DNA of 64,000 nt, from contig JAHDLB010000006.1 of the NCBI GenBank assembly GCA_018432315.1, positions 62,001 to 126,000 on the forward strand, read 5' to 3'. Within the stretch, counting starts at the first letter, position 1; each line of letters opens with the position of its first letter. Under the pieces are notes generated by a model that saw only the letters and a program-made list of their open reading frames with translations, ran no database searches and had not been told where the DNA came from. The stretch is from Anaerolineae bacterium. GTDB taxonomy: Bacteria; Chloroflexota; Anaerolineae; Aggregatilineales; Aggregatilineaceae. Shown piece by piece: positions 3-35,275 of the stretch. Both the position numbers and the translations under genes were made by a program.

Positions 3-935
3 ATCCCCATCATCATGTTCACGGCCAAGACTATGGTCGACGACAAGGTGGCCGGGTTCGAGGCCGGCGCGGACGATTACCTTACCAAGCCGACCCACCC
101 CGCCGAGCTGGCCTCGCGCGTGAAAGCGGTTCTCGCGCGCAGCGCCGCCCAACGCCGCGGCAAGAACGATCGCGCCTTTGCGATGGGGTTGATCGGCACC
201 AAAGGCGGGATCGGGACCACGACGCTGGCCGTCAACGTGGCGACCGCCACCGCGCAGCAGGAGCCGACGATCCTGGCCGACTTTCGCCCTGGGCAGGGCA
301 CCATCGGCCTCGCGCTGGGCTTTGGGCGCTCGACCGGCATGCCGAATCTGCTCTCCCGCCCCACCAACGAGATCACGTCGCGTGCAGTCGAACACGAACT
401 CGTCACCCACAGCAGCGGCTTGCGCCTGCTGCTCTCGTCGAGCCGCCCCAAAGAGAGCCTCATGAACGTCTCGCCGGACAGCGCGGCGCTCATCGTCCAA
501 CATCTGCGCTCGCTCTGCCGCCACGTCATGCTGGACCTCGGCCCAGGGATCAACAAGGTGACCGCCCGCCTGCTCCAGGACCTCGATCAGGTGACCCTCA
601 CCGTCGAGCCGACCCGCCTGGCGCTGGCCCTCGCCCGCGACCTCTTGCTCGATCTCGAGCAGGTCGGTTTCGCCCAAGCCCGTGTGAACGTCGTGCTGAT
701 CAACCGCACGCAGTCCAGCCTGAGCGTGCCGTGGCAGGAAGCCGAGCACATCCTCAACCACGAAATGACGGCGATCATCTCCCCTGCCCCCGAACTGGCT
801 TTTCAGGCAACGGAAGCCGGTATGCCGATCGTCCTGTTCCAGCCGAGCGCCATCGTGGCCGACCAGTTCAACAAGCTCGCCGAAGAGATGAACTCGCGCG
901 TGCAGGCAATCGCCAGGGGAACGCTCACCACCTAG
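3..935 (+). CDS. Receiver domain / CpaE-like P-loop ATPase (5' partial)
   Basis: The reading frame is open to the window edge, so the N-terminus is missing; codons before the first ATG (15) continue a receiver fold. The first ~45 residues are the end of a response-regulator receiver, with the conserved Thr in IIMFTAKT and the switch Lys in YLTKP. From ~residue 58 a MinD/CpaE-type ATPase follows, with a deviant Walker A ([14 protein letters not shown]) and a Walker B-like VMLDLGPG. CpaE/TadZ proteins localise Flp/Tad pilus machinery, and a receiver fused to the ATPase is the usual CpaE design. No other tad genes are visible here, so a pilus role depends on genes to the left of the window. It could instead be a generic receiver-ParA regulator. 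Confidence 0.8.
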
Positions 936-3139: not shown

Positions 3140-4096
3140 CTAGGGTTGCAGCACGATCTTCAGCGCACCGGGGCGCGCAGCGTGTTCCACAGCCTGGGCC
3201 GCTTCGTCCAACGGATAGCGCCCATCGATCAGCGGGAGGGGGTCTACCAGCCCCTGTCCCAGCAGCGCCAGCGCCGGGGCAAACGGGCCGCAGCGGCTGC
3301 CTGTTACCCGGAACTCATCCACGACCACCCGTGTCAGGTCCGCTTCGGGCAGCCCGGTGTAGGTGCTCTTGAGTATGATTGCGCCGCGTGGCCGGACCAG
3401 TTCGAGCGCGTCCGCAAAGCCGGACGCGTTGCCGGTGCAGTCCACGACGACATCCGCCTGCCCTGCGGGCAGTTCGTCGCGCGCCACAGCGGGGATTCCC
3501 CACCCCTCCAGCAGCGCGGCCTGGCGTTCGCGCCGCACCACGACCGCGAGAGCCACGCCGAGCAGACGGACGACCTGCGCCGCCAGCATCCCCAGTTTCC
3601 CCGCGCCGAGCACGACGACCCGATCGGAGGGACGGATCACGCCCGCCTCCAGGATCTGGCACGCGGCGGCCAGGGGCTCGGTGAAAACCGCCGCCTCGTC
3701 CGGCACCGATTCCGGGACTGCGACCAGGTTCCGAACTGGCAGCCGAAAATAGTCGGCCCACGCCCCGTCATAGTTCAGGATGCCCAACACGCGCCGCGCC
3801 CGGCAGTGAGTCGGCATTCCGCGCCGGCACATATCACACGCGCCGCAGCTCACGTTGATCTCGCCGGCGACGCGCCGCCCCAACCACTCGGACGGTCCCT
3901 CGACCACCTCCCCGACGAATTCATGCCCAAGCGTTCCCGCAAACTGCTTGTACCCCTGCATCAACTCCAGGTCGGTATTGCAGACGCCTGCCAGCCGCAA
4001 GCGGATCACGACCTCGTCGTCAGCCGGGCGCGGCGGCGAGCGTCGCACCACGCGCAGGGCGCCGTCGAACACGACGGCCCGTGTTAGCTCGTCCAC
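3140..4096 (-). CDS. Zinc-dependent MDR-family alcohol/sorbitol dehydrogenase
   Basis: A 318-residue medium-chain dehydrogenase. An N-terminal GroES-like domain carries the catalytic zinc Cys in GVCNTDLELM and GHEFVGEV. The structural-zinc loop CGACDMCRRGMPTHC has all four cysteines. The Rossmann fold has VVVLGAGKLGMLAAQ. The start was set at GTG 4096 because a strong ribosome-binding site (AAAGGAGG, minus strand, ~4102-4110) lies 5 bases upstream; a longer frame to 4171 would overlap the promoter of the divergent lipoprotein. It is shorter than classical alcohol dehydrogenases (~340-350) but typical of the threonine/sorbitol dehydrogenase-like branch. Substrate unknown. Confidence 0.88.
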   Translation of the reverse strand: MDELTRAVVFDGALRVVRRSPPRPADDEVVIRLRLAGVCNTDLELMQGYKQFAGTLGHEFVGEVVEGPSEWLGRRVAGEINVSCGACDMCRRGMPTHCRARRVLGILNYDGAWADYFRLPVRNLVAVPESVPDEAAVFTEPLAAACQILEAGVIRPSDRVVVLGAGKLGMLAAQVVRLLGVALAVVVRRERQAALLEGWGIPAVARDELPAGQADVVVDCTGNASGFADALELVRPRGAIILKSTYTGLPEADLTRVVVDEFRVTGSRCGPFAPALALLGQGLVDPLPLIDGRYPLDEAAQAVEHAARPGALKIVLQP

Positions 4097-17222: not shown

Positions 17223-17337
17223 CATTATGCCTCCTTTGGGTGGTGACATCTTGTCGCTCTCATCATAGTACAATTCGTTACCACGCGCCATTCATTATTT
17301 CAGGCGAATCCGCCGCGCATCGATCATGGTCCATCAT

Positions 17338-19727: not shown

Positions 19728-21608
19728 GTGTCACGAAAAAGACTCGGCAAGTACGAAATTATTGAGCGCATTGGTCGCGGTGGGATGGCCGAGGTGTATC
19801 GCGGCTATCACGCGGCCCTCGACCGCTACGTTGCGATCAAACTGCTGCATCCCTTCCTGGCCGACGACCCCGAGTTCAAGGATCGCTTCGAGAACGAAGC
19901 TCGCAACGTCGCCAAGCTCAAACACCCCAACATCGTCCAGGTGTACGACTTCGAGTACGATGCCGAAGGCGACAGCTATTACATGGTCATGGAGATGATC
20001 AACGGCCCCACCCTCAAAGACCGGCTGTTTGATCTCGGCAACGTAGGCGAGCGCTTCACCATCCCCGAGGCGATCCGCATCATCAAAGCGGCTGCCGAAG
20101 CCCTGGCCTATGCCCACCACCGCAACATGATCCACCGCGACGTGAAGCCTGCCAACCTCATGCTCGATGAGGATCACCGGGTCGTGCTCACCGACTTCGG
20201 CATCGCCAAAATCGTGACCGGCGCGCAGTTCACCGCCAGCGGGGGCATGGTGGGCACCCCGGCGTACATGGCCCCCGAACAGGGCCTCGGCGAAGCGGGC
20301 GACGAGCGATCCGACATTTACTCCCTCGGCGTCATTTTGTTTCAACTGGTGACCGGTCGCCTGCCCTACGACGCGGACACGCCCCTGGCGATCATCCTGA
20401 AACACGTCAACGACCCGCTGCCGCCGCCCAGTGAATTCGCCCGGGACATCCCCGCCGACCTGGAGCGCATCATCTGCAAGGCGATGGCGAAAGAACCGGA
20501 TGACCGCTATCAGACCGCCGCCGAACTCGCCCGCGAGCTGAGCTATCTCGACGATTACGGAGTGCGCCAGGCCATCTTCGACACGCCTTCACGGGCGAAC
20601 CTCGACGGGTCGCGCTCGCCGTGGGAAACCGAGCCAGCCGCACCCTCGCCCGCCGATCGCGCCCGCCTCGCCGCCAACTCGCCGGACCAGACGCGCCGTT
20701 TGCCCGAGGCGTACCCGGCCCGCGGCATCGCCCGCTCGGCCTCGTCGCGGCTCGATGTGACTGGGGTTTTGGGGCTGCTCGTGGGGATCGTATTGGTGTC
20801 CACCCTTGCCTTCATCGGCTTCGGTAACGACGACCTCCCGCTGGTGGGCCTCGTCAGACCCGGCAGCACGGACACGCCAGCCACCACGACTGCCATCGCC
20901 CAGGTTGCGCCGCCCACCACGCCCGTGCACACATCGACGCCCGAGCCGACCGAGATCCCGGCCCGGCAGGTCACCGCCACGACCCCGGCTGCTGAGACGG
21001 CGACGGTCACGCCAACGCCCACGCCCACCCAAACCGCGACCCCGACCCTGACGCCATCGCCCAACCTGACCGTCACCGCTCTGTTCCATCTGGTCGAAAC
21101 ACAGTCCGCCGCGACCCCTACCCCGGATATGACCCAAACCATCGAGGCGTGCGATTTCGAGTACATCGTCGTTCAGCCAGAGCGGCACAACGAGCCCCCC
21201 TCCTACAATAACTCGTCGAGCCCGCGCCTCGTGCGCTTCAACTCAGACTTCACAATCGAGATCGTGCTGCGCAACACGGGCAGTTGTGCCTGGCCCAAAG
21301 GCGTCCGGCTCACGTACAACCGGGCACTCACGCTCAATCCGGATGACTCCGTCAACATGGAACCCTTGCGCGAAGCGTGTGAGGATGATCTGCGACCTGG
21401 GCTCAATTTCGCCGCGCAAGAGCAGTCGAATTTCTACTTCACGCGGGCCGTCGACGTGACGGGCGAGACGGACGTCCTGGAGTTCACCGGCAAAGCGCCC
21501 CGGCTCTACGGCTGCTATTACAGCGTGTGGGACCTGCTCTACCCGGACAGCAGCGTCAAAATTGGCCGCCCGCTCGTGTTGACCATTCGCGTCTGGGGCA
21601 GCGGGTAG
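19728..21608 (+). CDS. Membrane Ser/Thr kinase with extracellular NBR1-type Ig-like domain
   Basis: A 626-residue PknB-type kinase. The kinase domain spans ~1-275: Gly loop (IGRGGMAEVYRG), VAIK Lys, HRDVKPAN with catalytic Asp138, DFG, and the MAPEQ activation-loop end. A linker, one transmembrane helix (~345-367), a Thr/Pro-rich spacer and a C-terminal beta domain (~490-626) follow. That domain carries FTIEIVLRNTGSCAWPKGVRL, the signature of the NBR1 central Ig-like domain. The kinase is cytoplasmic and the Ig-like domain faces outward, probably as a sensor. The GTG start fits the MSRKRLGKYEI opening common to such kinases; AAAGG lies 12 nt upstream. Confidence 0.92.
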   Translation: MSRKRLGKYEIIERIGRGGMAEVYRGYHAALDRYVAIKLLHPFLADDPEFKDRFENEARNVAKLKHPNIVQVYDFEYDAEGDSYYMVMEMINGPTLKDRLFDLGNVGERFTIPEAIRIIKAAAEALAYAHHRNMIHRDVKPANLMLDEDHRVVLTDFGIAKIVTGAQFTASGGMVGTPAYMAPEQGLGEAGDERSDIYSLGVILFQLVTGRLPYDADTPLAIILKHVNDPLPPPSEFARDIPADLERIICKAMAKEPDDRYQTAAELARELSYLDDYGVRQAIFDTPSRANLDGSRSPWETEPAAPSPADRARLAANSPDQTRRLPEAYPARGIARSASSRLDVTGVLGLLVGIVLVSTLAFIGFGNDDLPLVGLVRPGSTDTPATTTAIAQVAPPTTPVHTSTPEPTEIPARQVTATTPAAETATVTPTPTPTQTATPTLTPSPNLTVTALFHLVETQSAATPTPDMTQTIEACDFEYIVVQPERHNEPPSYNNSSSPRLVRFNSDFTIEIVLRNTGSCAWPKGVRLTYNRALTLNPDDSVNMEPLREACEDDLRPGLNFAAQEQSNFYFTRAVDVTGETDVLEFTGKAPRLYGCYYSVWDLLYPDSSVKIGRPLVLTIRVWGSG

Positions 21609-21685: not shown

Positions 21686-24600
21686 TTAGCTCTGCGCGGG
21701 CACGGCCTGCACCACCAGCCGCTGTGCGAAGACGCCGCGCGCATTGTTCCAGTCGGTGCACGTGATCAGGGTGAGAGTCTGCCCGTCGGTCGGAGCCGTG
21801 ACCGTCCAGTCCCCTGGCTCGACCTTGCGGGTGTTCGTCACCAGAAACGTATGCTCCGCCTCGCCCTCGACCACGATGATCTCGTCACCCGATTCCAGCT
21901 CGCCCAACCCCCAGAAGGGGCCCGGATTCTCCGCGCCGAGCTGGACGTGCGCCGCCAGGACGGTGTTGCCCCATCCCGGCGCGAGCCACGTCGTGCCCTC
22001 CAGCCAGCCGATGTAGTTCCCCAGCCCGCTGACGTCCCACTGCCGGTTCTCGAAGGGAATCTCGACAATCGGGATCGGCCCGCGAAACTGCCCGGCCAGC
22101 TTGGGGATCATCAGCGCGCGGATACCGGCAGGCTCCGGCGGCACGTACGGCGTAGCCGTCGGTGGGAACTCGAACACCAGCCCACCATCGCCAGCGGGGG
22201 CGGTCTCATTGGGCGCCACCGTCGGGCCCGGCACCGCGCCGCTCGTCGACTCCGGCTTATCGTCGTCGCGAGTCACCAGCAGCGCCACGCCCGCCGCGAC
22301 GATGATCAGGACGAGCAGCACGAACATCACCGCGACCAGCATCCGGCGGTTCGACACCTGGGCGCTCAACACCAGCATCAGCCCTCCGGCGAGCAGAACG
22401 CCGAGCAGGCCACCCAACCGCCCCCCTTCCTGGAGCGACGAGGAACGAATGCCGGTCGCCGGGAGCGTTATCGCCTCTGGGCCGACGTTGACGCTGGCCG
22501 TGCTGCACACTTGCTCGCTACCATCACGCGCCGCGCAGGCCGTATTCGAGATGGTCGCGGGCGTCTGGACCGTATCGCTGACCAGCGTGTACAACGTCAG
22601 CGTGACGGTCGCCCCGGCCTCCAACGTCCCGGTCGACACCGTGATGGTCTGCCCGTCCACGAAGGACGTGCCGCGATCGACGGTGGCCGAAGACAGCGTC
22701 AGCGAGCCGGGCACCTGATCCTGGATGGTGACGTTCGTCATCGGCACCGTGCCGCCGTTCCGAACCGTGACGGTCCAGGTGATCGGCTCGCCGGGCTGGG
22801 CCGTGGACGCGCTGGCCGCCTTGCTCACGATCGGCTCAGTCGCGTTGGGATCGAGCCCCGGCGCCGGCGTCGGCGTCGGTGTCGCGCCGGCCAGTGGGGT
22901 GATGGTCACGTCGACCGACGCGGTGACCACGTTCTCGCCCAGGTCGGTCCCGGTGACGTCTACCTGGAAGACGTACGGCTGCGTCTGGTCCTCGACTTTC
23001 ACGAGAATGCCCGAGGCGATCATGCCGGGGTCCAAATCGGGCCGGGAGAGCGTCAGCGAGCCGGTGATCTCCTGCGCGGATCGATCGGTGTGCCCGCTGA
23101 CCAGCATGAGGCCACGCGTGCTCCCCACCGGCGTGATCGTGTACGTCGCCTGCAGGTTATTGAGCGGTATCGTCCCGATGTTCTCGACGAAGACATCAAA
23201 CCGGACCGTCTCGCCATACGCCGGGTTCACCGGCGTCACCGAGGCGCTGACCTCCAGCTCGGCCTGCTCGATCTCGAACACGACCGTGAAGTCATCCGAT
23301 GTTGTGAATTCATCCGCGCTTGCGCGCAGCCCATCGTCATCGGGGAACGCCGGATCGCTGGGGCTGTACCCGCCTTCGACGGATACCGGGTACGCCGTCG
23401 TGACTTCGCCTTCACCCACCTCACGGGTTCGACTCGCGATGAACGTCTGACTCTCGCCCGGCTGCAAGACCGTATTCCTGATGATCTTCATATCGTCGTC
23501 GGTGGGGTCACCGGAACCATCTGTGAAGAGACCGTGCAGCCCGAGGTCGCCTAGCGATGGAGTGAAGTGACATGCAGCAGTTTCGTCAACCGTCTCGTCA
23601 CAGCCGATCGGCGACGCGCCCTCGTTCGTCAGGATCAGGCTGTAAGTCAGCTCGTCGCCCGGCTGGGCAGGATTCGGCTCGATGACGAACTCCACGTCTA
23701 GCACGAGGTCCACCAGTTGCACCGTCATCGCGTCCGTACCGCTGACCGGCGCTGCTCCGCGGGTGCCGCCCGCTGTCACTGAGATTTCCGGAGTCAGGTT
23801 CGCGTTGCTGTCCGCGCCAACCGGCGGAAGGTACTGGCAGCTAAGCGTCAGGTTGACCCCCGCTCCCAGCGTCGTGGGCTCGGGGACCGGATCCAGGTGC
23901 GTGCAGCTCACGACGTCGCCATCGATGCGGACGACGTAATCGAAGGCCGTGATCGGGACGTCGCCATCGTTGCGCACGCTGAACACGATTTCGACGTATT
24001 CGCCGGTCTGCAGCAGCGTCAGGTTGCCCGGCTGCTGCGTGATACTGAGCAGATCGACCTCGAAGTCCGAAACCTCGATGCTCGCCGTCGATTCGTCCAC
24101 CACCTCGCCCTCGATCAACAGCTCGGCGGTATTCTCGAACGTCTCGCCGTCATAGTCCGCGGGGATCACCAGGCTGCCCGTCGCGGTCGCCCCGGTGGAC
24201 GGTACCTCCTCCGGCAGCGCCGCGGTCCACGTCGTGATCGCCGGGTCGCTGAGCGTCACGCCGGTGACGGTACCGGTGGTCAGGCTCGTCACCTCGAACT
24301 GGTAGTTCACCAGGTCGCCCGGCCCGACCGGACTGGGCGTGATCACCGTCTTGGTCAGCTCCAGCAGGTCGACCAGGATCGTCGCGCTCGCCGAGTCGCG
24401 CACCTCGCCACCCACCAACACGCGGGCGGTGTTCGTGTGCTCGGTCGTCACGATATCTCCCGGCACCGTCGCGGTGTAGGTCACCGTTGCCATGTTCCCC
24501 GGCACCAGCGGCGGGATCGTCACCGCCAGCGGCGCGCCCGGCGGGTCCTCGATGGTCACGCTCACCGGGTCGGGGTCCGAGCCAACGTTTTGCACCCGCA

Positions 24601-27600
24601 GCGTGTACGTCACCGTGTCCCCTGGTTGGGCGCGTTGGGTGCTCGCCTCTTTCGTCAGCACCACGGTCGCCGCCGCCGGGTCATCGACGATCGTCACCGA
24701 AACGGAATCGGAGTCCTCGACCGGCCCGTTGCTGCTGGCCGCCGTCACCGTGACCGTGTTCGACATCGACGGCGGGTACGCGCTCGCCGGCACGGTGTAC
24801 GTCCCGCTCATCAGGAAGCTTTGCCCCGGCAGCAGTGGCTGGGCCGGCGGCGGGCTGAGCACGATCATCGGATCGTCCACGTCGAAGTCGGACAGCGGCA
24901 CCGTGCCGACGTTCGTCACTTCGACCATGTACGTGATCGTCTCGCCCGGCCCGGCGATCAACCTGTCCGCCGACTTGGTGACGAGGATGCCGCCCTCGGT
25001 CACCGGCACTTCCGCCGTCGCCGTGTCATAGACCGTGCCATCCGGGCTGGTTGCCTGCGCGTAGACCGTGCTGACGACCGGGCCGGGCAGTTCGGCGGTC
25101 ACCGTGCGATAGACGGTCACGCTTTCGCCGGGGTCGAGCGTCTGCTGTTCTGCCGTCAGCGCCAGGCTGCCTACGCTGTCGGACAGCGTCAGGCCGGTGA
25201 GCTGCTCGTCGCCAACGTTCATCGCCGTGTAGGCAAAGATGACGCTGCCTCCCGGCTCGGCATACGCGACGTTAGGCACGTTCGTCACCACCAGCCCGCT
25301 GTTAGAGATGTAAACCGCCTCGGTCGCCTGGACGATACGCGTCTGCGAGCCCGCCTTCGCCGAGACGGTCACCGTATTCCGGTAGGGGTCCGAGTCCTGG
25401 CTGGTGATCGTATGCTCACCCGTGCGCACCTCGATCTGCCCCGGTGCGAGATAGGACGGCCAGGCTGCGGGCGCGCCCGCCCGCATGAACACGACACCCG
25501 GATCGCTGTCCTGCACGTGCAGATCGTTGAGCGTGACGGTCCCGGTGTTTTCGATGCGGTAGGTGAACGTCACGGTGTCCCCGATGGCGGCCACGGTGGT
25601 GTTGGCCGTCTTGGTCACCGACAGCCCCATCTCGACGATCTCGACGGTGTTGGTGGCGGTATCCGTCACCAGCACCCCGCCCTGCGTGCCGGTCGCGACC
25701 GCCGTGTTGACCAGCGGCGCGCCGTCGGCCAGCGACACCACGTGATCGAACGTGCAGCTTGCCGGCGTGCTCCCCAGCGAGGCGACGGTGCAGTCGGGGA
25801 TGGCGCTCGTGCCATGCGGGCTCATCGTGTCCACCACGCTGACGTTGGTGATCGGATTGTTGTCGGGATCGGCGTTGAGGTTGGTCAGCGTCAGCGTGTA
25901 CTGGATCGTCTGGCCCAGGGACGCCCGGCCATTGGCCGCGTTGGACGTCTTCGTTAGTTGCAGGTCGCTGGTCACCAGGTTGAGCGTCGCCGTGTCGGTG
26001 TCCTGCACCGTGACGACCGGCTCCGCCGACTCAGCAGTGACCGTCACCAGGTTCACGATCGGATCGGGATCGCCCTGCTGCACCGTGTACGTGTACTTGA
26101 AGGTGACCTCGTCCTCTCCGCCGGGCAGGCCGTCATCCGGCGCCAGCACGCCTGGGCGCCCCGCGATCGGCCACGCGATGGCGTCGAAAACGCTATCGTC
26201 GACCAGCGTATCCGTGATCGAGATGTTCTGAACCTCAATCACGCTCGGGTTGAAGATGCGCAGATAGTACGTCACCGTGTCACCCACCTGCGCCACGTTC
26301 GTGCAAACCGGCGGCATGGTTGGGGCATCCTCGCGGCAGACGTCCTTCTCGACGCCGACGTCCACGCCCTGCACGTCGACCACCGCCTGCGCCGTGTTCA
26401 GCACGGCGGTGCTGCCGGCATATCCGGTCACCGTCACCCGGTTCACGTAAGGATCGGGATCGTCGACTTGCAGCGTGTACGCGTAGACGTACTCGAACTC
26501 CTCGCCGGCATCGAGCGTGCCGGAGTCGTCAACCGGATCGCCGTCCTCGTCGCTGTCCGGGAACCCGTCCTCGATCGTCACGTAGCCGCCCGGCAGTCCC
26601 CGATCGGTGATCACCAGTTTGTTGAGCGCGGTGTTGCCCACGTTGGTCACGCGCACCGTGTAGCTGACCGGCGTGCCGACTGGCGCCGATGTCGGTGACG
26701 CGAGCTTCTCGACATTGATCCCCGCCTCGCGGATGTCGACCGTCGCCGAGGTACGGTCGCGCACCGTGGTGTCCGGCGCCACTGTCAGCCGCGCCTCGGC
26801 CTCGGCCACGTTGGTGAACTCGCTCAGCTCCCAGTCTTCGGGCACGGTCACCCTGATCGTGCCCACGACCTGCTCGCGCGACTCCAGGCCACGCGCCGGA
26901 TCATACGGATTCCCGTCTTGCGGATTCGGCACGCCACTCTCGTCATACGGTTGGGCCGTGTACCTGAATGTGCAGGTTCCCGACGTCGGGACCTCACACA
27001 GCTCGTCGAGCCGGTATTCGCTGTTGTCGGTCACGTCGCGGATGACGATCTGGTCGAGCGTGTCGCCCTCGCCGCCGCGATTGGTCACTGTGATCGTGTA
27101 TTCGACTTCCTGGCCCTGGGTGGCCGCCTGCGTTTCGGGCACCTTCACGATCCGGATGTTCGGATTCAGGATGTCCACCGACGCGGTTGCATCCGCCTCG
27201 ACCGTGATGGTCGCGCCGTGCTCGTCGGTGAAGTCACCGTATGCCGTGATCGTGTTGATGAATGGGTCTTTCTCCGGCTGCGCCGCGAGTTCTTCGACAG
27301 TCGGCATTTGCATGGTATAGAAGATGTACGCGGTTTCGAGCGGGTTCAGATCGACGGCCGACACGTCGTCGCCCTCGAACGTCATCGTCGCGCCATAGTG
27401 AGAGTCGACCGCGCGCACGTTGTGGACCGGGATCGTCCCGATGTTCGTGATGCTGATCTGGTAGCGAACCGTGTCGCCGGGGTTCGCGACAGTCGGCATC
27501 GCCGCCTTGCGCACCAGCAACTGGCTCTCGGTCACGGCCACGGTCGCCCGCGTGCTGTCCTCCACCGGGATCGGCTCAGTCTCGTTGAGCGTGCCCGTCA

Positions 27601-30600
27601 CGCGCGCGATGTTGGGCAGCGGGTCGGGATCGGTATTTTTGATCGTGTACGGGTAGTTGTAGGTTGCGAACCCGCCCGGTCCCAGCGTTTGCGGGGTGCC
27701 GCCATTGTTGTTCGTGGACCAGTCGAACACATCCGGGTCGATCGGCCCCGGCGCGCTGCCCGCGAAGGCATCTTCGACCACGATGTTATCGATAGTGGCC
27801 GAGCCGTGCTTGTTCTCGATCCGGATCTGGTAGTAAATCTCCTCGCCGACGAACGCCAGCGGCTGCGAGGGCAGCTTGGTGATCAACAGCGTCGAGCCGA
27901 TGATATCGATCGCTAGCTCGTCCTCGTTGTAGACTGCTGCCCCGCCGGACGAGGTCCCTTTGAGCGTCACCGTGTTGATCACCGGGTCGCCATGGGTCGC
28001 CGGGTTCAGCGACATCGAATCGAGACAGAACTCCACCGACTCGCCGCCGTACAACCGGTCGGACTGCCCCGGCTCGCGATCCGGCGACGGGTTTTGGAGC
28101 ACCGCCGGGTCCAGCACGGCTTCTGTGAACTTGGGCTGCAGCGCTCCCGGCTCAATGCCTGGGCCGATGTCCTCGACTATGATGCCATCGACGAACGTCG
28201 AGGTTGACGTGCTGGTGTTCTCGAGCGTGAAGCAGTAGAACATGGGAACGCCCACTTCCACCTCGGGCATGCCGTCACCGCCCAGCGCCGCCGGGAACAA
28301 GTCCGGCAGGGGCTCGCCCGGCTCGCCGCCGTCGTCGAACCGCGCCGTTTTCGTGATCGTCACGTCAGGATCGATCAGGTCGATCGTCGCCATCCCATCG
28401 CTGCTGATTTCGCGCCTGATATCCCCGTCGAGCACGATCGTGCCCTTCGCTGTGGCGATGTTCACCAGCGGGTCCGGATCATCGATCTCGATCACGTAGG
28501 TCTCGGTCACCGATACCGACTCATTCGGCTGGAGCGTCACCTCGCCGTCCGTCAGGCGCGGGATGATATCGCCCAGTACGTCGTCGGTGAGCGTGATGGA
28601 CTCCACGAGGTACGGGCTGACATTCGTGATCGTGTAGTCGTAGGTGACTTCATTGCCGGGCGTCGCCTGTTTGACGCTGGCCTTCTTCACCACCTTGAGC
28701 GGGCGGCCCGTATAGACGAGCGCCTCGGCCCACGTGTAGAACGTCACGCCGGGATCGCCCGGATCGGGAAAATCGGCGATGACCGTGTTCATCAGCTCTT
28801 CGGGATCGTCGGGCTGCACTTCGCGCACGACCTCCGTCAGCACCCATTCCCGGTCCGGATCACTCTCGCTCGGCGGCAGCAGCCACCCGGAGGTTTCTCC
28901 CGGGTCGATCGTGCCATCGTGGTTGAAGTCGAACGCGATCGGGCTGGGCAGCAGGGAGTCCGTCACCTGCTCGATGTAGAACTTGTCGTAAGGCGCGTCA
29001 TCCTCTTCAGCGACGTTTTCCATGTAGATGTAATAGGTGACTTCTTCGCCCGTGAACGCGACGAACGGGTCGGGGATTTTCAGCAGTGCAACCGGGCTGT
29101 AGACCGGGTAGTTGAACACCTGCTGGCAGGACGGTGTCCCGGCTATCGGCGAGAACGTCGCCGTCACCGTTTCGTTGATCTTGCCCTCGCCCTCGCTGTA
29201 GTATTCGTTCGTGATCAGGACATCGAACGCCGGGAGCGTCACGCTCTCGCCCGCTCCCAACACGCCCACCGTGGACGGCCAGCTCGATTCGGGGATCGGC
29301 ACTTCACCGCCCCAGCCCAACGTGTCGCTAATCACGATGTCGGTGATCGTGTCCAGGCTGTTGTTCGTCGCGGTGATCTCCCACCGCAGCGTTTCGCCCA
29401 GGATATCGTCCGGATCATCGTCCTGGTTCAGCGGCTGCTTGACGGTGAACCCGATCGGACACTCGATGTTTACCGCGTGCGAGCCGAACCCGGTCACGAG
29501 CGCGCCGTCAAACGACCGCGTGCCGGTCACCGTGAAGATGTTGGTGAGCGGGTTCGGGGCGGCCCCGACACTGTCGATGGTGAAGGTGGCGCTCACCGAT
29601 TCGCCCGGTGGAATCTGCCCCTTGATGCCGCCCGGCCAGTCCGCGCCGGTCGCGCCGAAGTCGTCATGGCTCACCGGGATGTCGTATTCCGTCATCGCGA
29701 ACACCGTGTCCGCATACCCGTCGATCGTCAGCGTTTGCTCGGTGGAGTAGTTGGTGATCGTCACCTGGTAATGCACGGGTTGGCCGGCCACGCGGCCCGT
29801 CTCGGCGGTTTTGAGCACACCCACCATCGGGATCAACATGATATCAAGCGTGTCGGACGTCAGCACCGGGCCGGTTTCATTCTGCCCCACCCCGCGGACG
29901 ATCATGGTCAGGATATCGCCTGAAATGCCTGCTCCCGGTTGAATCGTGTAGGGGAACGATCCGGCGACGGTCTGCCCCGGTAGGACGCTGTTGACCAGCC
30001 CGACCTGCAGATAGCCATACGGGTCGCCCGCGTCGGGCACCAGCATGTTGTACAGGCGCACGTTCGTAACTGTCGTCTGGCTTGAATTCGTCAGCGTGTA
30101 CGAGATCGTGACGGTATCGCCCTCGACGGCTTCTTGCGGGCCGGAGAGTTCGAGCTGTAGATCGCTCGACGCAACCGGGATCGTCTTGGCCGTCTTGATG
30201 GAAACCTGCTTGCCTTCATTGTCCAGCCCGTACAGCGTCACCTGAACCGTAAACCGGTCCACTTCGGCATCACCGCCGGTCACCTCGTACCCCGAAGGTG
30301 GGAAGTACGCGCTTGCCGTTTCGAAGGATCCGATCGACGTTGGCGTCAGCGTCGTGATCGTCACCGCGCCATCCTCGCAGTTCAGCGGATCGGGCGCGGT
30401 CCGGTGCAGAAAACAGTATTCCGCCGTCAGGTTTTCGAGCGTCACCGAGCCCACGTTCGTCGCGCCGTAATCGAACGTCAGCATGTCGCCGACCTTCGCC
30501 ACACCGTCCTCTCCCAGGTCGACCAGGATCTCGGCGTTCACCTGGGCGTTGGAGAGATCGAGCACGCTGGACGTGCGGTCGGTCAGGAAGTCGTCGCCAG

Positions 30601-32701
30601 GGCACCCATTGCGCGACGTCACTTCGAAGATCATGTGCAGCGGGTCTTTGTCCGAGCCGGTCACCAGGTAGGTCACCGTGCCCGACACCGTGGCTCCGCC
30701 TGCTATCTGGTTGAGCACATCCCACGCCATCGGTACGTTGGTCACGACCGGCATCTCGAACCCGGTATCGGGGTCGCGCCGGTACTGGTTGACCACCACG
30801 TTACACACCGGCTCAGCCGAATGGTTCGTGACGGAAACGCGGTAATTCACTTCGCCGCCGCGCAGCACCGTGTCCGTTTCGAGGCCCTCGACCAGCGCCG
30901 CGATCGAAATGTTCGGGTTGGAGATGTCGAGCGTCACCTGGTCTTGCCCATACACCAGGCGGTTGGTCGAATCGGTCCCCCTGAGCCTGATCGTGCTGGT
31001 CAGCGGGTCGTCCTCCGTGCCGGTGACAGGGTATTCCCAGGAAAACGCCTCTTGCGCGCCCGGCGCGAGTGAAATCCCCAGGTCCGGTTTTGGCCCCACC
31101 GTTTGGAGCGGCGGCAGCACGTTCACGTAGTCGATCCCGGAGATCGTCCCCTGGCCCGTGTTGCGGATCACCATCTCGTATCGCACGGTCTTGGGCGGAA
31201 TCACGTAGTCGATCGGCGAGCCATCGTCCGGATCGACCACTGACAGCTCGACCTCCAGCGCGGAGTCCGCAATGTCGACCGACACTGCCGTCGACGCGCT
31301 CACCGTGCTACCGGTGCCCACCCCGCGGGCCGTCACCGACACCGTATTGGTGAGCGGGTCCGGGCTGTTGGCTGGCACGACGTAAGTCACCGGCGCGAAC
31401 GGATAGTCCTCGCCGGGGCTCAACGCCATGCTCTGGTCCACGAACAACGGCCCGATCAGGCTGTCCATCACCCAGATGTGATCCAACGGCACCTGACCGG
31501 TGTTCCTGACCGTGATCTGGTACGTGATCCGGTCACCGGGCGCGGCGGGCGGTTCGATCGACTGCGTCCCGCGCTTGATATCGACGACCGACTTGGACAC
31601 GGCGACAGCCGGCAGGGTGATCGTCACTCGCTCACTCTGTACATCCTCGTCCACCGACAGGCCGGCTGTATCCGTGACCTGCACGTTCCCCGCTAGCCGG
31701 AAGGTCTGCGGGGGCGGATTGTTGGGTATGAACACATCGTTGACGGTACAGGATGCCGTCTCGCCGGTCGAAAAGTCCGGCGGAGAAGCCAGCGTCCAGT
31801 TCGCGATGCCGTTACAGGCCGCGATGAACGCTGAGATCGAAGGCGACAAGTCGCCCTCCAACGTGGACGGAGGCGACACGGTAATGTCCGAAATGACGTT
31901 GCCGGGCCGGATATTCTCGATCACGATCGTGAAATCGACCGAGTCCCCTGGCGAAGCGGTGAACGGCTCGGGCAGGTCGGGCTCGAACGAGCGCACCTTG
32001 AAGCCCGGCCCCTGGATATAGACGAAATCATCATCGGCGTCGTTGATGTACACACCACCGCTCGGCAGGCCATCGTATGCCGCCCCGCGCGTCCGTAGGT
32101 CCAGACGGTTCGCATTGATATTTCCCGGCACCTGAAAATCCAGCACCGCATAGGCCAGTTGACCCGGCTCCAACACGCCGTGTGGACCAGAGGCGGGGAA
32201 AATCAGCGGGATCCCAAACGTCCCCAGGTGCTGCCCGGTCGAACTCTCGAATACCAGCTCCGCAGCAACCTCGTTCAACTGCGCGCTGCCCGAGCTCTCG
32301 ATCACGACCAGCCAGGACAGCGTGTCCCCGGTTTGGTGAGTCACGGCAGAGCCTTGGGGCCACGTTGTTTCAACGTCTGCCCCGTAAGGCGTGGTGGGAT
32401 GATTAGCGGGAAAGGATGGATCGGGTACGCCAGGGCCAAGCGGGCTCGCCAGCAGAAACGCGCTGACGCCGATCTTGCCGTCGGGGTCGTGCGGCTCGGG
32501 TGGCAGCCGCAGCCCTTCCACCGGGGCCGTCGGGGCCACATTGGCGGGGCCCCCGGCCTCGCCATGATCGGGCGCGCTCACGGCAGCGGACACGTCGCGC
32601 GCCGGGGCGAGATCGAACGCGGCAACCAGTTGAGCCTGGCTCACCACCAGGGCCAAAATCACGAGTGTGGCACGCAGCCAGGGCGTGAGTTTTTTCGACA
32701 T
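21686..32701 (-). CDS. Giant DUF11-repeat surface protein with LPATG signal and C-terminal sortase domain
   Basis: One uninterrupted frame of 3671 residues. A signal peptide (~1-28) is followed by a ~90-residue region and about 27 DUF11-like repeats of ~110-130 residues (each with a PGDTVTYTLRVxNVG-like core) from ~118 to ~3400. An LPATG motif follows (residues 3413-3417, 22451-22465), then a hydrophobic helix (~3424-3445), a basic SNRR turn, a second helix (~3452-3475), an Asp/Thr/Pro linker, and a sortase domain (~3525-3671). The sortase has His3585 (VLAAHV), Cys3648 (TLITCTDW) and Arg3661 (AQRLVV). Positive-inside topology places both repeats and sortase outside, with the sorting signal beside the enzyme. 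ATG 32701 has GAGGAG six bases upstream. Likely a wall-anchored stalk or adhesin; self-sorting is inferred. Confidence 0.88.
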   Translation of the reverse strand: MSKKLTPWLRATLVILALVVSQAQLVAAFDLAPARDVSAAVSAPDHGEAGGPANVAPTAPVEGLRLPPEPHDPDGKIGVSAFLLASPLGPGVPDPSFPANHPTTPYGADVETTWPQGSAVTHQTGDTLSWLVVIESSGSAQLNEVAAELVFESSTGQHLGTFGIPLIFPASGPHGVLEPGQLAYAVLDFQVPGNINANRLDLRTRGAAYDGLPSGGVYINDADDDFVYIQGPGFKVRSFEPDLPEPFTASPGDSVDFTIVIENIRPGNVISDITVSPPSTLEGDLSPSISAFIAACNGIANWTLASPPDFSTGETASCTVNDVFIPNNPPPQTFRLAGNVQVTDTAGLSVDEDVQSERVTITLPAVAVSKSVVDIKRGTQSIEPPAAPGDRITYQITVRNTGQVPLDHIWVMDSLIGPLFVDQSMALSPGEDYPFAPVTYVVPANSPDPLTNTVSVTARGVGTGSTVSASTAVSVDIADSALEVELSVVDPDDGSPIDYVIPPKTVRYEMVIRNTGQGTISGIDYVNVLPPLQTVGPKPDLGISLAPGAQEAFSWEYPVTGTEDDPLTSTIRLRGTDSTNRLVYGQDQVTLDISNPNISIAALVEGLETDTVLRGGEVNYRVSVTNHSAEPVCNVVVNQYRRDPDTGFEMPVVTNVPMAWDVLNQIAGGATVSGTVTYLVTGSDKDPLHMIFEVTSRNGCPGDDFLTDRTSSVLDLSNAQVNAEILVDLGEDGVAKVGDMLTFDYGATNVGSVTLENLTAEYCFLHRTAPDPLNCEDGAVTITTLTPTSIGSFETASAYFPPSGYEVTGGDAEVDRFTVQVTLYGLDNEGKQVSIKTAKTIPVASSDLQLELSGPQEAVEGDTVTISYTLTNSSQTTVTNVRLYNMLVPDAGDPYGYLQVGLVNSVLPGQTVAGSFPYTIQPGAGISGDILTMIVRGVGQNETGPVLTSDTLDIMLIPMVGVLKTAETGRVAGQPVHYQVTITNYSTEQTLTIDGYADTVFAMTEYDIPVSHDDFGATGADWPGGIKGQIPPGESVSATFTIDSVGAAPNPLTNIFTVTGTRSFDGALVTGFGSHAVNIECPIGFTVKQPLNQDDDPDDILGETLRWEITATNNSLDTITDIVISDTLGWGGEVPIPESSWPSTVGVLGAGESVTLPAFDVLITNEYYSEGEGKINETVTATFSPIAGTPSCQQVFNYPVYSPVALLKIPDPFVAFTGEEVTYYIYMENVAEEDDAPYDKFYIEQVTDSLLPSPIAFDFNHDGTIDPGETSGWLLPPSESDPDREWVLTEVVREVQPDDPEELMNTVIADFPDPGDPGVTFYTWAEALVYTGRPLKVVKKASVKQATPGNEVTYDYTITNVSPYLVESITLTDDVLGDIIPRLTDGEVTLQPNESVSVTETYVIEIDDPDPLVNIATAKGTIVLDGDIRREISSDGMATIDLIDPDVTITKTARFDDGGEPGEPLPDLFPAALGGDGMPEVEVGVPMFYCFTLENTSTSTSTFVDGIIVEDIGPGIEPGALQPKFTEAVLDPAVLQNPSPDREPGQSDRLYGGESVEFCLDSMSLNPATHGDPVINTVTLKGTSSGGAAVYNEDELAIDIIGSTLLITKLPSQPLAFVGEEIYYQIRIENKHGSATIDNIVVEDAFAGSAPGPIDPDVFDWSTNNNGGTPQTLGPGGFATYNYPYTIKNTDPDPLPNIARVTGTLNETEPIPVEDSTRATVAVTESQLLVRKAAMPTVANPGDTVRYQISITNIGTIPVHNVRAVDSHYGATMTFEGDDVSAVDLNPLETAYIFYTMQMPTVEELAAQPEKDPFINTITAYGDFTDEHGATITVEADATASVDILNPNIRIVKVPETQAATQGQEVEYTITVTNRGGEGDTLDQIVIRDVTDNSEYRLDELCEVPTSGTCTFRYTAQPYDESGVPNPQDGNPYDPARGLESREQVVGTIRVTVPEDWELSEFTNVAEAEARLTVAPDTTVRDRTSATVDIREAGINVEKLASPTSAPVGTPVSYTVRVTNVGNTALNKLVITDRGLPGGYVTIEDGFPDSDEDGDPVDDSGTLDAGEEFEYVYAYTLQVDDPDPYVNRVTVTGYAGSTAVLNTAQAVVDVQGVDVGVEKDVCREDAPTMPPVCTNVAQVGDTVTYYLRIFNPSVIEVQNISITDTLVDDSVFDAIAWPIAGRPGVLAPDDGLPGGEDEVTFKYTYTVQQGDPDPIVNLVTVTAESAEPVVTVQDTDTATLNLVTSDLQLTKTSNAANGRASLGQTIQYTLTLTNLNADPDNNPITNVSVVDTMSPHGTSAIPDCTVASLGSTPASCTFDHVVSLADGAPLVNTAVATGTQGGVLVTDTATNTVEIVEMGLSVTKTANTTVAAIGDTVTFTYRIENTGTVTLNDLHVQDSDPGVVFMRAGAPAAWPSYLAPGQIEVRTGEHTITSQDSDPYRNTVTVSAKAGSQTRIVQATEAVYISNSGLVVTNVPNVAYAEPGGSVIFAYTAMNVGDEQLTGLTLSDSVGSLALTAEQQTLDPGESVTVYRTVTAELPGPVVSTVYAQATSPDGTVYDTATAEVPVTEGGILVTKSADRLIAGPGETITYMVEVTNVGTVPLSDFDVDDPMIVLSPPPAQPLLPGQSFLMSGTYTVPASAYPPSMSNTVTVTAASSNGPVEDSDSVSVTIVDDPAAATVVLTKEASTQRAQPGDTVTYTLRVQNVGSDPDPVSVTIEDPPGAPLAVTIPPLVPGNMATVTYTATVPGDIVTTEHTNTARVLVGGEVRDSASATILVDLLELTKTVITPSPVGPGDLVNYQFEVTSLTTGTVTGVTLSDPAITTWTAALPEEVPSTGATATGSLVIPADYDGETFENTAELLIEGEVVDESTASIEVSDFEVDLLSITQQPGNLTLLQTGEYVEIVFSVRNDGDVPITAFDYVVRIDGDVVSCTHLDPVPEPTTLGAGVNLTLSCQYLPPVGADSNANLTPEISVTAGGTRGAAPVSGTDAMTVQLVDLVLDVEFVIEPNPAQPGDELTYSLILTNEGASPIGCDETVDETAACHFTPSLGDLGLHGLFTDGSGDPTDDDMKIIRNTVLQPGESQTFIASRTREVGEGEVTTAYPVSVEGGYSPSDPAFPDDDGLRASADEFTTSDDFTVVFEIEQAELEVSASVTPVNPAYGETVRFDVFVENIGTIPLNNLQATYTITPVGSTRGLMLVSGHTDRSAQEITGSLTLSRPDLDPGMIASGILVKVEDQTQPYVFQVDVTGTDLGENVVTASVDVTITPLAGATPTPTPAPGLDPNATEPIVSKAASASTAQPGEPITWTVTVRNGGTVPMTNVTIQDQVPGSLTLSSATVDRGTSFVDGQTITVSTGTLEAGATVTLTLYTLVSDTVQTPATISNTACAARDGSEQVCSTASVNVGPEAITLPATGIRSSSLQEGGRLGGLLGVLLAGGLMLVLSAQVSNRRMLVAVMFVLLVLIIVAAGVALLVTRDDDKPESTSGAVPGPTVAPNETAPAGDGGLVFEFPPTATPYVPPEPAGIRALMIPKLAGQFRGPIPIVEIPFENRQWDVSGLGNYIGWLEGTTWLAPGWGNTVLAAHVQLGAENPGPFWGLGELESGDEIIVVEGEAEHTFLVTNTRKVEPGDWTVTAPTDGQTLTLITCTDWNNARGVFAQRLVVQAVPAQS

Positions 32702-32836: not shown

Positions 32837-34042
32837 TCAACTGATCGCCTCGTACACACGCAACAGATCCGCTGCCGTCCGAGCCCAGTTGTAGCGTGCT
32901 TCTCCGAGCGCCCGCGCGCACCGGGCCAGCTCGACGCGGGCCTGACTGTCGAGCAGCCGCCGCAGCGCATCGACCGCCGCCGCGCCCGTCGCGGAGTCCA
33001 GCACGATCCCGCAGCGTTCCCGCTGCACGAACTCGGCGATCTCGCCCACGGGCGTCACCATCAGCGGGCGGCCCACTGCCAGCGCGAAAAACGCCAGATT
33101 GGGCATGAAATAGAAGCTGTTCGGATCGTTCGCGTTCAGCCCGTAATACACCACATCGCTCGCCGCCACGAGCGCCGCCACCCGGTTGAGCGCCACCTGC
33201 CCCAGCGGCAGAATCCGCGGGCACGCCTCCGCCGCGCGCCGGACCTCCCCTTCCCGCGGCCCTGTCCCGCCCACGGCCATCCACACACCCGGCAGAGCGG
33301 CGACCGCCTTCAGCGCCGGGGCCAGCACGCGGTCCGGCGCCAGCTGCCCGACATACCCGACCAGCAGCGCGCCGTCCGGCACTCCCAGCGCCCGACGGAC
33401 TCGTCGCCGCTGGTCGTCGGCCCAGCGCGGATCGGACAGCCCCTGAGTATTCGGGATGATGGTCACCGCCGCCCCCATCGCGCTCAGGCGAGTCGCCAGC
33501 CGGGAACCAACCGTCAGGACGGCAGCGGCCCGCGGAGCGAGTGTACGCTCCAGCGCTTCGAGGACCTCACTCACGGTTCGGCCCACGTTGGCCCGCACCA
33601 TGCCGGGATAGTATTCACGCGCATCGTAGATCACCGGCACGCCGGCCCGTCTCCCGTACCACCACGCCAGCGGCAGGGTATCGAGATCGTGGGCATGCAC
33701 GACGCCGGGCCTCGCCCGCCGCAGCTCGCCAAATGCCGCCCACCAGTAGCGCGGAATCCGGAGCGCGAGGCGTCGCCCGGTGCGGTAGCCCGCCGGCACC
33801 CCCACGCGGTAGACCGCTGCCGGTCGCGGACCGGGCCCGATCCGATTCGTCCACGGCGTGAGAGCAGCCGCCAGCGCATCCGGCGCGCGCTCAAGTTCGT
33901 GCGCGGGAAAGCGTCCCTCGCGATCCCACGCAACGATGGTCGCGCGGTATCCCGCAGCGGCCAGCGTGTGCGCCTCTTTTTGAACGCGGACGTCTGGGCC
34001 GTACCCGTTCGAGATCAGAAACGCGACGTGACGCTCGCTCAC
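32837..34042 (-). CDS. Family 4 (GT-B) glycosyltransferase
   Basis: A 401-residue retaining GT-B glycosyltransferase. The N-terminal acceptor domain has ISNGYGPDVRVQKEA and VHAHDLDTLPLAWW; the C-terminal donor domain has GYVGQLAPDRVLAPAL, VGGTGPREGEV and the DPNSFYFMPNLAFFALAVGRP/E region. GT4 enzymes use NDP-sugars to extend polysaccharide or glycolipid chains at the cytoplasmic face. The GTG start overlaps the stop of the upstream GT4 gene (GTGA). Sugar specificity cannot be read. Confidence 0.87.
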   Translation of the reverse strand: MSERHVAFLISNGYGPDVRVQKEAHTLAAAGYRATIVAWDREGRFPAHELERAPDALAAALTPWTNRIGPGPRPAAVYRVGVPAGYRTGRRLALRIPRYWWAAFGELRRARPGVVHAHDLDTLPLAWWYGRRAGVPVIYDAREYYPGMVRANVGRTVSEVLEALERTLAPRAAAVLTVGSRLATRLSAMGAAVTIIPNTQGLSDPRWADDQRRRVRRALGVPDGALLVGYVGQLAPDRVLAPALKAVAALPGVWMAVGGTGPREGEVRRAAEACPRILPLGQVALNRVAALVAASDVVYYGLNANDPNSFYFMPNLAFFALAVGRPLMVTPVGEIAEFVQRERCGIVLDSATGAAAVDALRRLLDSQARVELARCARALGEARYNWARTAADLLRVYEAIS

Positions 34043-35193
34043 GGCAGCAGCTCGCGGTACAGCGCGGCGAGGCGCTCCGCCTCGGCTCGCCAGTTCAGGC
34101 GATGTTGTGCCGCTTTGATCGCCTGCCGGTGTTCCGCCTGCCGTTCGGGTTCGAGAATACGCCGGATCGCGCCGGCGATCGCGGCGGGATCGGTCGCGTC
34201 ACACACGATCCCCAGGCGATAGCTTTCGACCATACGCCGCACGGCGAACTTGTCGGAGGCCACTACCGGCAGCCCGGCAGCAACCGCCTCGAACAGCTTG
34301 TTCGGCAGCGTTGCGCGGCTGTGCCACGAATCGGGCCGGAGCAGCACCAGCGCCGCCTGGGCATCGCTGATCGTCTCCGCGACCGCCTCCGGCTTGACCG
34401 GCGAGACGAAGCGCACGCGGTTTTCCACGCCCAACGTTTGCGCCCGCACCTCGAGCGCCGCCCGCGCTTCGCCATTCCCCAAGAAGACGAGGTCGACCCC
34501 CTCCGGCACAGCAGCGAATGCCTCGACCAGTTCATCCAGGCAGCGCCCGCGATTGGTCAGGTCCCCGGTATGGACCAGGTAGGGGTTCTGGGCGGGCGCT
34601 GGCGGGACCGGATCGATACAGTTGCTAATCACCACCGGGCGCGGGATGCCGTACCACCACGCCAGGCACCGGGCGATCGGTTCGCTCACGGTGATCACCG
34701 CGTCTGCCCCCCGCGCCAATCTGCGCTCCATGGCAAACCAGATCGGGCGCGCCAGCCTGTACAGCCGATCCCCATGCCGCGAGCGGTCGCGCGGCAAGTG
34801 CAGGTACAGCTCGTGCGAATCGTAGACCAGCCGCGTCTCTGAGCGGCGCCCCCACCGCGCCGCCGCCACGAGTAGCAGCGCGGGCAGGTCATGGGCGTGA
34901 TAAACGCGTGCCCGGATCCGCGACAGCGCGCGCACGATCTGCACGGCCTGCAAGATGTGGCGCGCCCAGCGCCACGGGCGGCGCAGGCTGTGGCCGAATC
35001 GCCCGTAACGCACGCGGCGAATCCGGAAGCCCAGGACGTGCTCGTCGTCCGGCAGAGTCCCACCGGCGCGCTGCGTCCCGATCACGAGCACCCGCCAGCC
35101 GTGGCCCGCCAGCGCCGCGGCTTCGCGCCGCACCCGCCCATCGAAGGACAGGTCGTTGAGAACCAGCATCACGATGTCGTATTCGGGTTCCAC
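34039..35193 (-). CDS. Family 4 (GT-B) glycosyltransferase
   Basis: A 384-residue GT-B glycosyltransferase: MLVLNDLSFDGRVRREA near the N-terminus, VYHAHDLPALLL, then the C-terminal HTGDLTNRGRCLDELVEAF, VFLGNGEARAAL and LPNKLFEAVAAGLPVVAS (nucleotide-sugar site with the conserved Glu). GTG 35193 was chosen: AAGGAGG lies 14 nt upstream and the start falls downstream of the minus-strand -10. A longer frame to 35460 would overlap the divergent GT39 gene. First gene of a two-gene operon divergent from GT39/flippase. Confidence 0.85.
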   Translation of the reverse strand: MEPEYDIVMLVLNDLSFDGRVRREAAALAGHGWRVLVIGTQRAGGTLPDDEHVLGFRIRRVRYGRFGHSLRRPWRWARHILQAVQIVRALSRIRARVYHAHDLPALLLVAAARWGRRSETRLVYDSHELYLHLPRDRSRHGDRLYRLARPIWFAMERRLARGADAVITVSEPIARCLAWWYGIPRPVVISNCIDPVPPAPAQNPYLVHTGDLTNRGRCLDELVEAFAAVPEGVDLVFLGNGEARAALEVRAQTLGVENRVRFVSPVKPEAVAETISDAQAALVLLRPDSWHSRATLPNKLFEAVAAGLPVVASDKFAVRRMVESYRLGIVCDATDPAAIAGAIRRILEPERQAEHRQAIKAAQHRLNWRAEAERLAALYRELLP

Positions 35194-35206
35194 AGGTGCC
35201 GGTTCT

Positions 35207-35232
35207 TCCTCCTTCGCATATTCGAGTATAGT
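35207..35232. promoter_or_regulatory. Overlapping divergent -10 elements
   Basis: Plus-strand TATAGT (35227-35232) and minus-strand TATACT (35225-35230) share four base pairs of a near-palindromic site. Each faces its own operon: GT39/flippase on plus, two GT4 genes on minus. The minus transcript has AAGGAGG at 35208-35214. -35 boxes are weak on both sides. Confidence 0.5.
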
Positions 35233-35275
35233 AGGGATCGGCTCGTATTCTGACCGTTCACGGTGTCCGCATACC

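Follow-up and report, generated by a model that had tools for sequence, protein, structure and literature searches.

In an uncultured Chloroflexota bacterium, a giant surface protein carries at its C-terminus a sortase cutting site, followed by the sortase itself. Sortases are known for acting on separate substrates. We consider it fairly probable that this protein is a surface stalk that sorts itself, in cis; neither the cleavage nor the acceptor is proven. The gene lies in the window, which here means the whole stretch of 64,000 nucleotides that was analyzed, and its features are as follows, in window coordinates.

21686–32701, (−): gene of 3671 aa with an ATG start; signal peptide, 27 DUF11-like repeats, LPATG, helical hairpin, sortase
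32606–32701, (−): N-terminal signal peptide region, aa 1–32 (hydrophobic at 9–32); from hydropathy only
22538–32353, (−): stalk of 27 DUF11-like repeats, aa 117–3388; from an iterated self-profile and Pfam DUF7507 and DUF11
22451–22465, (−): LPATG, aa 3413–3417, with a putative cut between T3416 and G3417; all 25 aligned relatives share its L, P, T, and G
22355–22423, (−): predicted transmembrane helix 1, about aa 3427–3449; from hydropathy and an AF2 helix at model residues 26–45
22343–22354, (−): basic turn SNRR, aa 3450–3453, the “charged tail” of the sorting signal; from sequence and alignment
22271–22342, (−): predicted transmembrane helix 2, about aa 3454–3477, the counterpart of the N-terminal helix of a free sortase; from hydropathy and an AF2 helix at model residues 51–76
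22172–22270, (−): predicted disordered linker, aa 3478–3510; AF2 pLDDT < 50 at model residues 78–110
21698–22120, (−): sortase beta-barrel, aa 3528–3668; from PF04203 at 3558–3668, AF2 strands, and PDB matches
21947–21949, (−): catalytic His3585 (role by analogy); from sequence and alignment
21758–21760, (−): catalytic Cys3648 (role by analogy); from sequence and alignment
21719–21721, (−): catalytic Arg3661 (role by analogy); from sequence and alignment

An earlier reading of this DNA, made without database searches (hereafter the sequence-only reading), had described the frame of 3671 codons, the signal peptide, approximately 27 repeats, the LPATG at 22451–22465, the SNRR hairpin, and His3585, Cys3648, and Arg3661, and it was right to the residue. 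A DUF11-type repeat array, which we took as the criterion for a stalk or fibrillar adhesin, is present: an iterated profile of the protein’s own repeats gave 27 copies, and Pfam gave PF01345 and DUF7507. The isopeptide-forming fimbrial domain model TIGR04226 also matched (39.4 bits, cut-off 30). Hydrophobic stretches, scored in segments of 19 residues, were found at aa 9–32, 3427–3450, and 3449–3480. In the classical sorting signal, LPXTG is followed by a hydrophobic stretch and a charged tail, which retain the protein at the membrane for sortase action (PMC12445088, text available in part). The window protein meets this composition with its LPATG, hydrophobic helix, and basic SNRR; the LPATG, which is the single match to LP.[TSA]G over all 3671 aa, starts 259 residues before the end of the protein, so that the signal is not at the very C-terminus. 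The GC content per codon position was coding-like throughout the gene (0.62/0.47/0.85) and in the section from the LPATG to the sortase (0.73/0.51/0.87). When the sortase part was compared with four orthologues, dN was 0.21–0.42 and dS 0.69–1.07, and dN was below dS for the LPATG, the hairpin, and the sortase alike.

The C-terminal domain meets what we required of a member of the sortase superfamily, by profile, by a predicted beta-barrel fold, and by the presence of His, Cys, and Arg; its transpeptidase activity is inferred, and the geometry of the triad was not seen. Pfam PF04203 scored 65.3 bits at residues 3558–3668 (cut-off 26.6). The general NCBIfam sortase model, TIGR01076 (cut-off 39.35), gave 34.2 for the window protein, just below the cut-off, and 57.1–63.0, above it, for a second form of the design that is described below. 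All of the class models scored the window protein below their cut-offs (class C, NF033745, 28.4/160; D, 27.6/165; E, 28.7/160; GN, 21.5/158.25), as they did the second form, whose best class C score was 61.6/160. The class F model NF033748 did not match the window protein up to an E value of 0.1 and gave 48.5–55.1/166 for the second form. No class A or B model occurred among the NCBIfam matches of either form, the library content for these two classes being unchecked. Because the class models remained far below their cut-offs, the enzyme is filed here as a sortase without a class. The nearest fold of the window domain was the class C pilin sortase 2xwg, at the top in both Foldseek and VIA (2xwg_D: Foldseek E 5.5e-11; VIA Z 18.4, rmsd 2.5, 147 aligned), and the expectation of the sequence-only reading that this domain folds as a sortase was borne out by these matches and by the AF2 model. 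By sequence, the top match for the second form was 24rr, a class C sortase of the Ebp pilus. TIGR04226 matched locus L223 strongly, at 174 bits. In the AF2 model of the window protein, helices were placed at model residues 26–45 and 51–76, and the motif region had low to modest confidence (block means of 37 and 52).

The sequence-only reading had called for a search for homologues with the order DUF11-LPXTG-TM-TM-sortase, and this single-frame arrangement recurs in many relatives. Among the 18 genomes of the window’s family, long frames ending in a sortase were found in G001, G002, G005, G007, G009, and G012 as well as in the window’s own genome, and G003, G006, and G010 had pieces located at contig ends. 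At the level of the order (154 genomes), at least 23 genomes had a frame of > 3400 aa running into a sortase; in one of these, G021, the contig ends inside the sortase. We fetched 30 order-level loci, 25 of which had LPXTG before the hairpin. Four others (L082, L083, L100, and L102) are short frames starting at or after the hairpin, in our reading truncated by contig ends. The remaining locus, L101, is unfused, a frame of 330 residues with LPGAG. The alignment kept only the LPXTG-bearing rows, i.e., 25 rows from 25 genomes and 17 genera, including several near copies from one genus. In all 25, the L, P, T, and G of the motif and the His, Cys, and Arg were invariant, as the sequence-only reading would have it for the motif, while the flanking columns 1–12 and 18–30 reached 5–14 of 25 and x was represented by seven kinds of residue. 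A fixed LPxTG between varying flanks, with a varying x, is the pattern of a sortase substrate, and the alignment thus indicates that the motif is under selection in the fused C-termini. A fused relative found later, L148, has LAGTG in place of LPXTG. The named records with the window’s form are Chloroflexota MAGs; when patterns of this form only were searched, the hits outside Chloroflexota (WS6, Saccharibacteria, Paceibacterota, Doudnabacteria, and one Bifidobacterium record) were plain short sortases of 193–261 residues.

Some of the relatives have features of their own. L123 and L124, from other Chloroflexota, are small LPXTG-helix-helix-sortase versions (530 and 427 aa) that would be handy experimentally. 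In two giant relatives, L065 and L093, the sortase is followed by one more C-terminal domain, about 130 residues long. Extra helix-basic-helix points were seen in the middle of L065 (about aa 3169–3191 of 5173) and L066 (aa 3565–3622 of 4874), where the second helix ends like a signal peptide (..FAQ and ..HAQ); from their sequences, L065 and L066 look like several surface proteins run together. A polyprotein reading was dropped for the window protein, which has no internal helix-basic-helix points, unlike these far relatives.

A class-wide search of 396 genomes, with five candidates scored per genome, revealed multiple large frames with a terminal sortase domain in some families, above all in f32. 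We chose 20 such C-termini for their long frames (families f32, f52, f55, f58, and f23), and in all 20 the pattern [LI]Px[TS]GF occurred 167–182 residues from the C-terminus, as LPATG, LPETG, IPVTG, LPHTG, and others. The sortase core starts 22–28 residues after the first residue of the motif, and His, Cys, and Arg are invariant in all 20 sequences. In none of the 20 proteins is the motif followed by a membrane helix; past the motif, the top 19-residue hydropathy was 0.62–1.31, below every helix threshold used. Only L182 and L185 had values > 1.7 anywhere, close to the beginning of the fetched frame; L186 reached 1.68 upstream. In 12 long genes of this form, the sole hydrophobic segment was N-terminal in 10, and the other two, cut at the contig start, had none. 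By its composition, the motif of the second form is not a classical sorting signal, and because it is without a helix and charged tail, the adjacent sortase is its obvious user. We propose that the second form is the same self-sorting, performed by a secreted enzyme; how a soluble enzyme keeps near the wall is unexplained.

The second form is often present in several copies. The 41 genomes of f32 that were ≥ 95% complete gave 69 strong matches (166–291 bits), in 33 genomes; 26 of these matches were read, and 22 had the motif. Among 16 odd copies of the second form that were read, 12 had the motif and four (L212, L219, L220, and L221) were broken or without it; in G326 and G487, the broken copy was the sole strong match. 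Some second-form matches had seemed to contain stops, which, where read, were mostly the terminal stop. Judged by length and aligned range, the weak f32 matches (≤ 66.6 bits) were mostly plain sortases of ∼260–390 residues that aligned only from after the motif, together with some short fragments. Copies are often clustered; every copy carries a sortase of its own, and the motifs of neighboring copies often differ, e.g., LPATG and IPVTG in G477, and LPETG and IPVTG in G466. The second form is also present in the single-contig genomes G177 and G421, which speaks against an assembly error. Another single-contig genome, G359 (2.9 Mb), had seven second-form matches, including four strong ones. Across 400 genomes of the phylum, with up to eight candidates scored in each, the strong matches among those listed were only in families of the same class. 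The recurrence of the design in two forms and in many relatives of the class suggests that these proteins cut and anchor themselves.

The predicted structures also bear on the use of the motif. In the AF2 model of the second form, the block LPATGFAPGQ had a mean pLDDT of 89 and no secondary structure; a block that is confident and yet unstructured agrees with a peptide lying on the barrel, as far as a model can tell. With VIA-align, the second-form model aligned to SrtE1 of Streptomyces coelicolor over residues 20..195 with 168..351 (Z 18.6, rmsd 2.4, 142 aligned), and the window model over 12..271 with 168..339 (Z 16.5, rmsd 2.2, 132 aligned). In both models, the first aligned residue is the one just before LPXTG, and it is paired with SrtE1 residue 168. 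In the SrtE1 crystal, residues 168–170 form a peptide bound next to the catalytic Cys and Arg, and residues 171–192 are invisible (PMC5148588, text available in part). Several class C sortases likewise align with both models from before or at the motif onward; other structural matches (class A) start after it. This placement rests on the first and last aligned residues only, without coordinates and without a control model of a free sortase, and a preference of AF2 for LP-rich peptides in sortase grooves may alone explain it. The sequence-only reading had left open whether the enzyme acts in cis or in trans; the helix-free form and the modeled placement of the motif favor cis without proving it.

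Under the cis model, the window protein would be exported by Sec (inferred), and the repeats would lie outside. Helix 1, SNRR, and helix 2 would form a hairpin with the basic turn inside, so that the LPATG and the sortase, connected by the flexible linker, would both come to lie on the outer face. This topology is inferred; the earlier suggestion that the hairpin returns the chain outside and sets the sortase beside its own motif is consistent with the sequence, the AF2 model, and the conservation in relatives. The sortase would then bind the LPATG of its own chain, Cys3648 would attack between Thr3416 and Gly3417, and the stalk would be held briefly as a thioester on its own enzyme. The stalk would be handed to a wall amine, most simply that of lipid II or peptidoglycan (inferred), and the freed sortase would remain in the membrane as a hairpin protein (inferred). 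MraY is present in the window’s genome, so lipid II is present; the acceptor may be lipid II, peptidoglycan, or another stalk. We also propose, with a little less than even confidence, that LPXTG plus sortase constitutes an autocatalytic C-terminal tag that fits behind any exported stalk, with one enzyme per substrate and loading in cis, of which the helix-free form has no membrane anchor, and that this tag has spread over many paralogous stalks of the class and has arisen or been lost several times.

Following the suggestion of the sequence-only reading that free sortase genes be sought in the full genome, we found three, among them the related L003; a free sortase frame like L003 (214–289 aa) was listed in 14 of the 18 family genomes. 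L003 itself (L071:9382–10077 (+), G000:C51) follows genes that, by eye, resemble subunits of CO dehydrogenase/acetyl-CoA synthase and a maturation ATPase. A scan of the window revealed no other LPXTG protein with a membrane tail, so the earlier statement to this effect holds within the window; it does not extend to the genome, which has at least one ordinary LPXTG protein, a small DUF11 protein with LPSTG, a helix, and an RR tail (L070:3912–4814 (+), G000:C15). This protein is a possible substrate of the free sortases. Its gene adjoins one that resembles, by eye, the redox repressor Rex. To count substrates, we tried the LPXTG_anchor HMM TIGR01167 (E up to 10), which rang in all 14 control genomes and was useless; the frames of its eight hits in the window’s genome held no LPXTG. 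The number of other LPXTG proteins in the genome can therefore be given only as at least one, found through DUF11. We then read the 18 loci that came next after the fused ones in the class-wide search (L149–L166), which were 17 free sortases and one fused protein (L156). An LPXTG-helix-basic gene lies immediately upstream of three of the 17 free sortases, L151, L154, and L157, whose frames open 8, 42, and 106 bases past the end of that gene, respectively. In the other 14, no adjacent LPXTG gene was seen within the approximately 1.5 kb available per side: L149 had one farther off, about 0.9 kb upstream of the sortase, and 13 had none. These 14, like the LAGTG of L148 and the four broken or motif-less second-form copies, count against our preferred reading. 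The split gene pairs of these related families look like textbook sortase operons.

Free sortases of the same genome, e.g., the related L003, could cut the LPATG in trans, and the fused sortase might then serve other LPXTG proteins, such as the DUF11-LPSTG protein at G000:C15. The three free sortases, the L003-like frame in 14 of the 18 family genomes, and the existence of another LPXTG protein in the genome would all suit this explanation, which accounts neither for the joining of LPXTG and sortase in several distinct groups of the sortase tree nor for the helix-free form, whose motif has no sorting signal around it; we therefore regard it as unlikely. Another possibility, to which we give little weight, is a self-loading polymerase, in which the enzyme takes its own LPXT in cis and passes it to a lysine of a neighboring stalk, giving a covalent, pilus-like fiber or bundle without a wall anchor. 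Several matches point that way, namely the class C pilin sortases nearest in fold to the window domain (2xwg), the Ebp pilus sortase 24rr at the top by sequence for the second form, and TIGR04226, which matches the window protein (39.4 bits) and L223 (174 bits), as do the three-stranded hook filaments reported for the giant Litorilinea DUF11 protein GhlA (PMC13319060, text available in part). The class C model NF033745, however, is far below its cut-off (28.4/160), the stalk is already thousands of residues long, and no acceptor lysine motif is in evidence, none having been sought.

The LPXTG might instead remain uncut, as a pseudo-substrate lying over the active site like the lid of a class C sortase, with the hairpin tying the stalk to the membrane. 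The authors of the SrtE1 study discuss a lid role for the peptide segment (PMC5148588, text available in part), and several class C alignments of both models start before or at the motif. A perfect LPxTG with a free x is not needed for a lid, however, and the helix-free form would be without an anchor at that end. To our knowledge, the known sortase lids are not LPXTG, and on these grounds we consider the lid very unlikely. That two neighboring genes were joined by a sequencing or assembly error can be regarded as refuted for practical purposes: the genome is a draft of 66 contigs and separate adjacent genes are real in other families, but at least 23 of the 154 genomes of the order have frames of > 3400 aa running into a sortase (the contig of G021 ending inside it), the single-contig G177 and G421 carry the second form, and dN is below dS for the LPATG, hairpin, and sortase against four orthologues. 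Self-sorting in cis thus remains our preferred reading of the window protein.

The window’s form is probably an in-frame fusion of neighboring genes for an LPXTG protein and a sortase. If the stop were lost between such a pair of genes, the hairpin of the window protein would result, with helix 1 and SNRR from the substrate and helix 2 from the sortase. We constructed a sortase tree of 95 rows and 143 columns, whose root is unknown, from 95 of 133 extracted cores; the 38 dropped were copies, fragments, contig-edge rows, and outside hits. The second form makes up a single clade (98/97). The first form is divided among three groups that stand apart from one another: the 12 rows of the window’s giants (95/95), another group (99/91) in which L148 and the unfused L101 are included, and L123 with L124 (100/96). 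The starred branches imply at least three changes, and the fusion of LPXTG with sortase is thus inferred from the tree to have been gained or lost several times; gains and losses are indistinguishable because the root is unknown. Co-evolution of motif and enzyme was considered and rejected as evidence: the IPVTG rows are not one clade (L168 and L171 are together, L174 elsewhere), and since motif and enzyme are inherited together, co-evolution is uninformative on cis versus trans.

On one side of the giant gene are two glycosyltransferase genes (window 32837–35460 (−)), and on the other is a convergent Ser/Thr kinase gene with an Ig-like end (window 19728–21608 (+)). Similar genes flank the giant gene in G002, G009, and G012, and the kinase side is also found in G005, so the gene order seems to be kept in relatives; the likeness was judged by eye from the sequences, and Pfam was run on the window’s genes only. 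The flanking glycosyltransferases and kinase are candidates for glycosylation and control of the stalk. Farther away, the gene at window 15585–17291 (−) encodes LysM repeats with a weak glycosyl hydrolase match and is likely a wall-bound enzyme.

Compared with known systems, the window protein shares with S. aureus SrtA/protein A and with class C pilus systems the sortase fold, the His-Cys-Arg set, and an LPXTG followed by a helix and basic residues. It differs from them in having motif and enzyme in one chain, an internal sorting signal, and one enzyme per substrate, and the second form differs further in having no sorting helix at all. A self-cleaving sortase fusion was reportedly engineered by Mao in 2004. 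Engineered fusions of this kind link the cargo to a sortase that acts as a self-cleaving module of the same chain, as is proposed here; they are man-made and have the sortase before the cargo, whereas the natural window protein has cargo, motif, and sortase last (PMC3614425, text available in part). In Streptomyces coelicolor SrtE1 and the lidded class C sortases, the active site holds a stretch that precedes the barrel, as the alignments suggest for both of our models; the stretch of SrtE1 is AQA, not LPXTG, and SrtE1 is a separate membrane protein (PMC5148588, text available in part). Litorilinea aerophila, also of Chloroflexota, has the protein GhlA of 6596 aa with 49 DUF11 domains, which forms grappling-hook-like filaments (PMC13319060, text available in part). 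GhlA and the window protein both have a giant DUF11 stalk, a likeness in size and repeat type only, as no sequences were compared; the text of the GhlA paper contains neither “sortase” nor “LPXTG” (PMC13319060). A 2006 paper noted one Chloroflexus protein that has a sortase-like region but for which evidence of sortase action is lacking (PMC1586193, text available in part). In the open PMC literature, as far as its partly available texts go, we found no description of a natural LPXTG-sortase fusion; subscription papers and bioRxiv were not covered. Two large surveys of surface proteins, according to the available parts of their texts, sought LPXTG in the last 50 residues only (PMC9210967, PMC12617251). 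Both forms would be missed under this limit, and the design is thus easily overlooked.

A natural, recurrent, and often multi-copy design in which the motif stands before the enzyme would be a third logic beside those of the housekeeping and pilus sortases. The pairing of sortase and substrate, which is usually hard to tell, would here be written into the gene. If our reading is true, these C-termini would be ready-made self-ligating tags, and the finding would show how a large class of Chloroflexota displays giant stalks on its surface.
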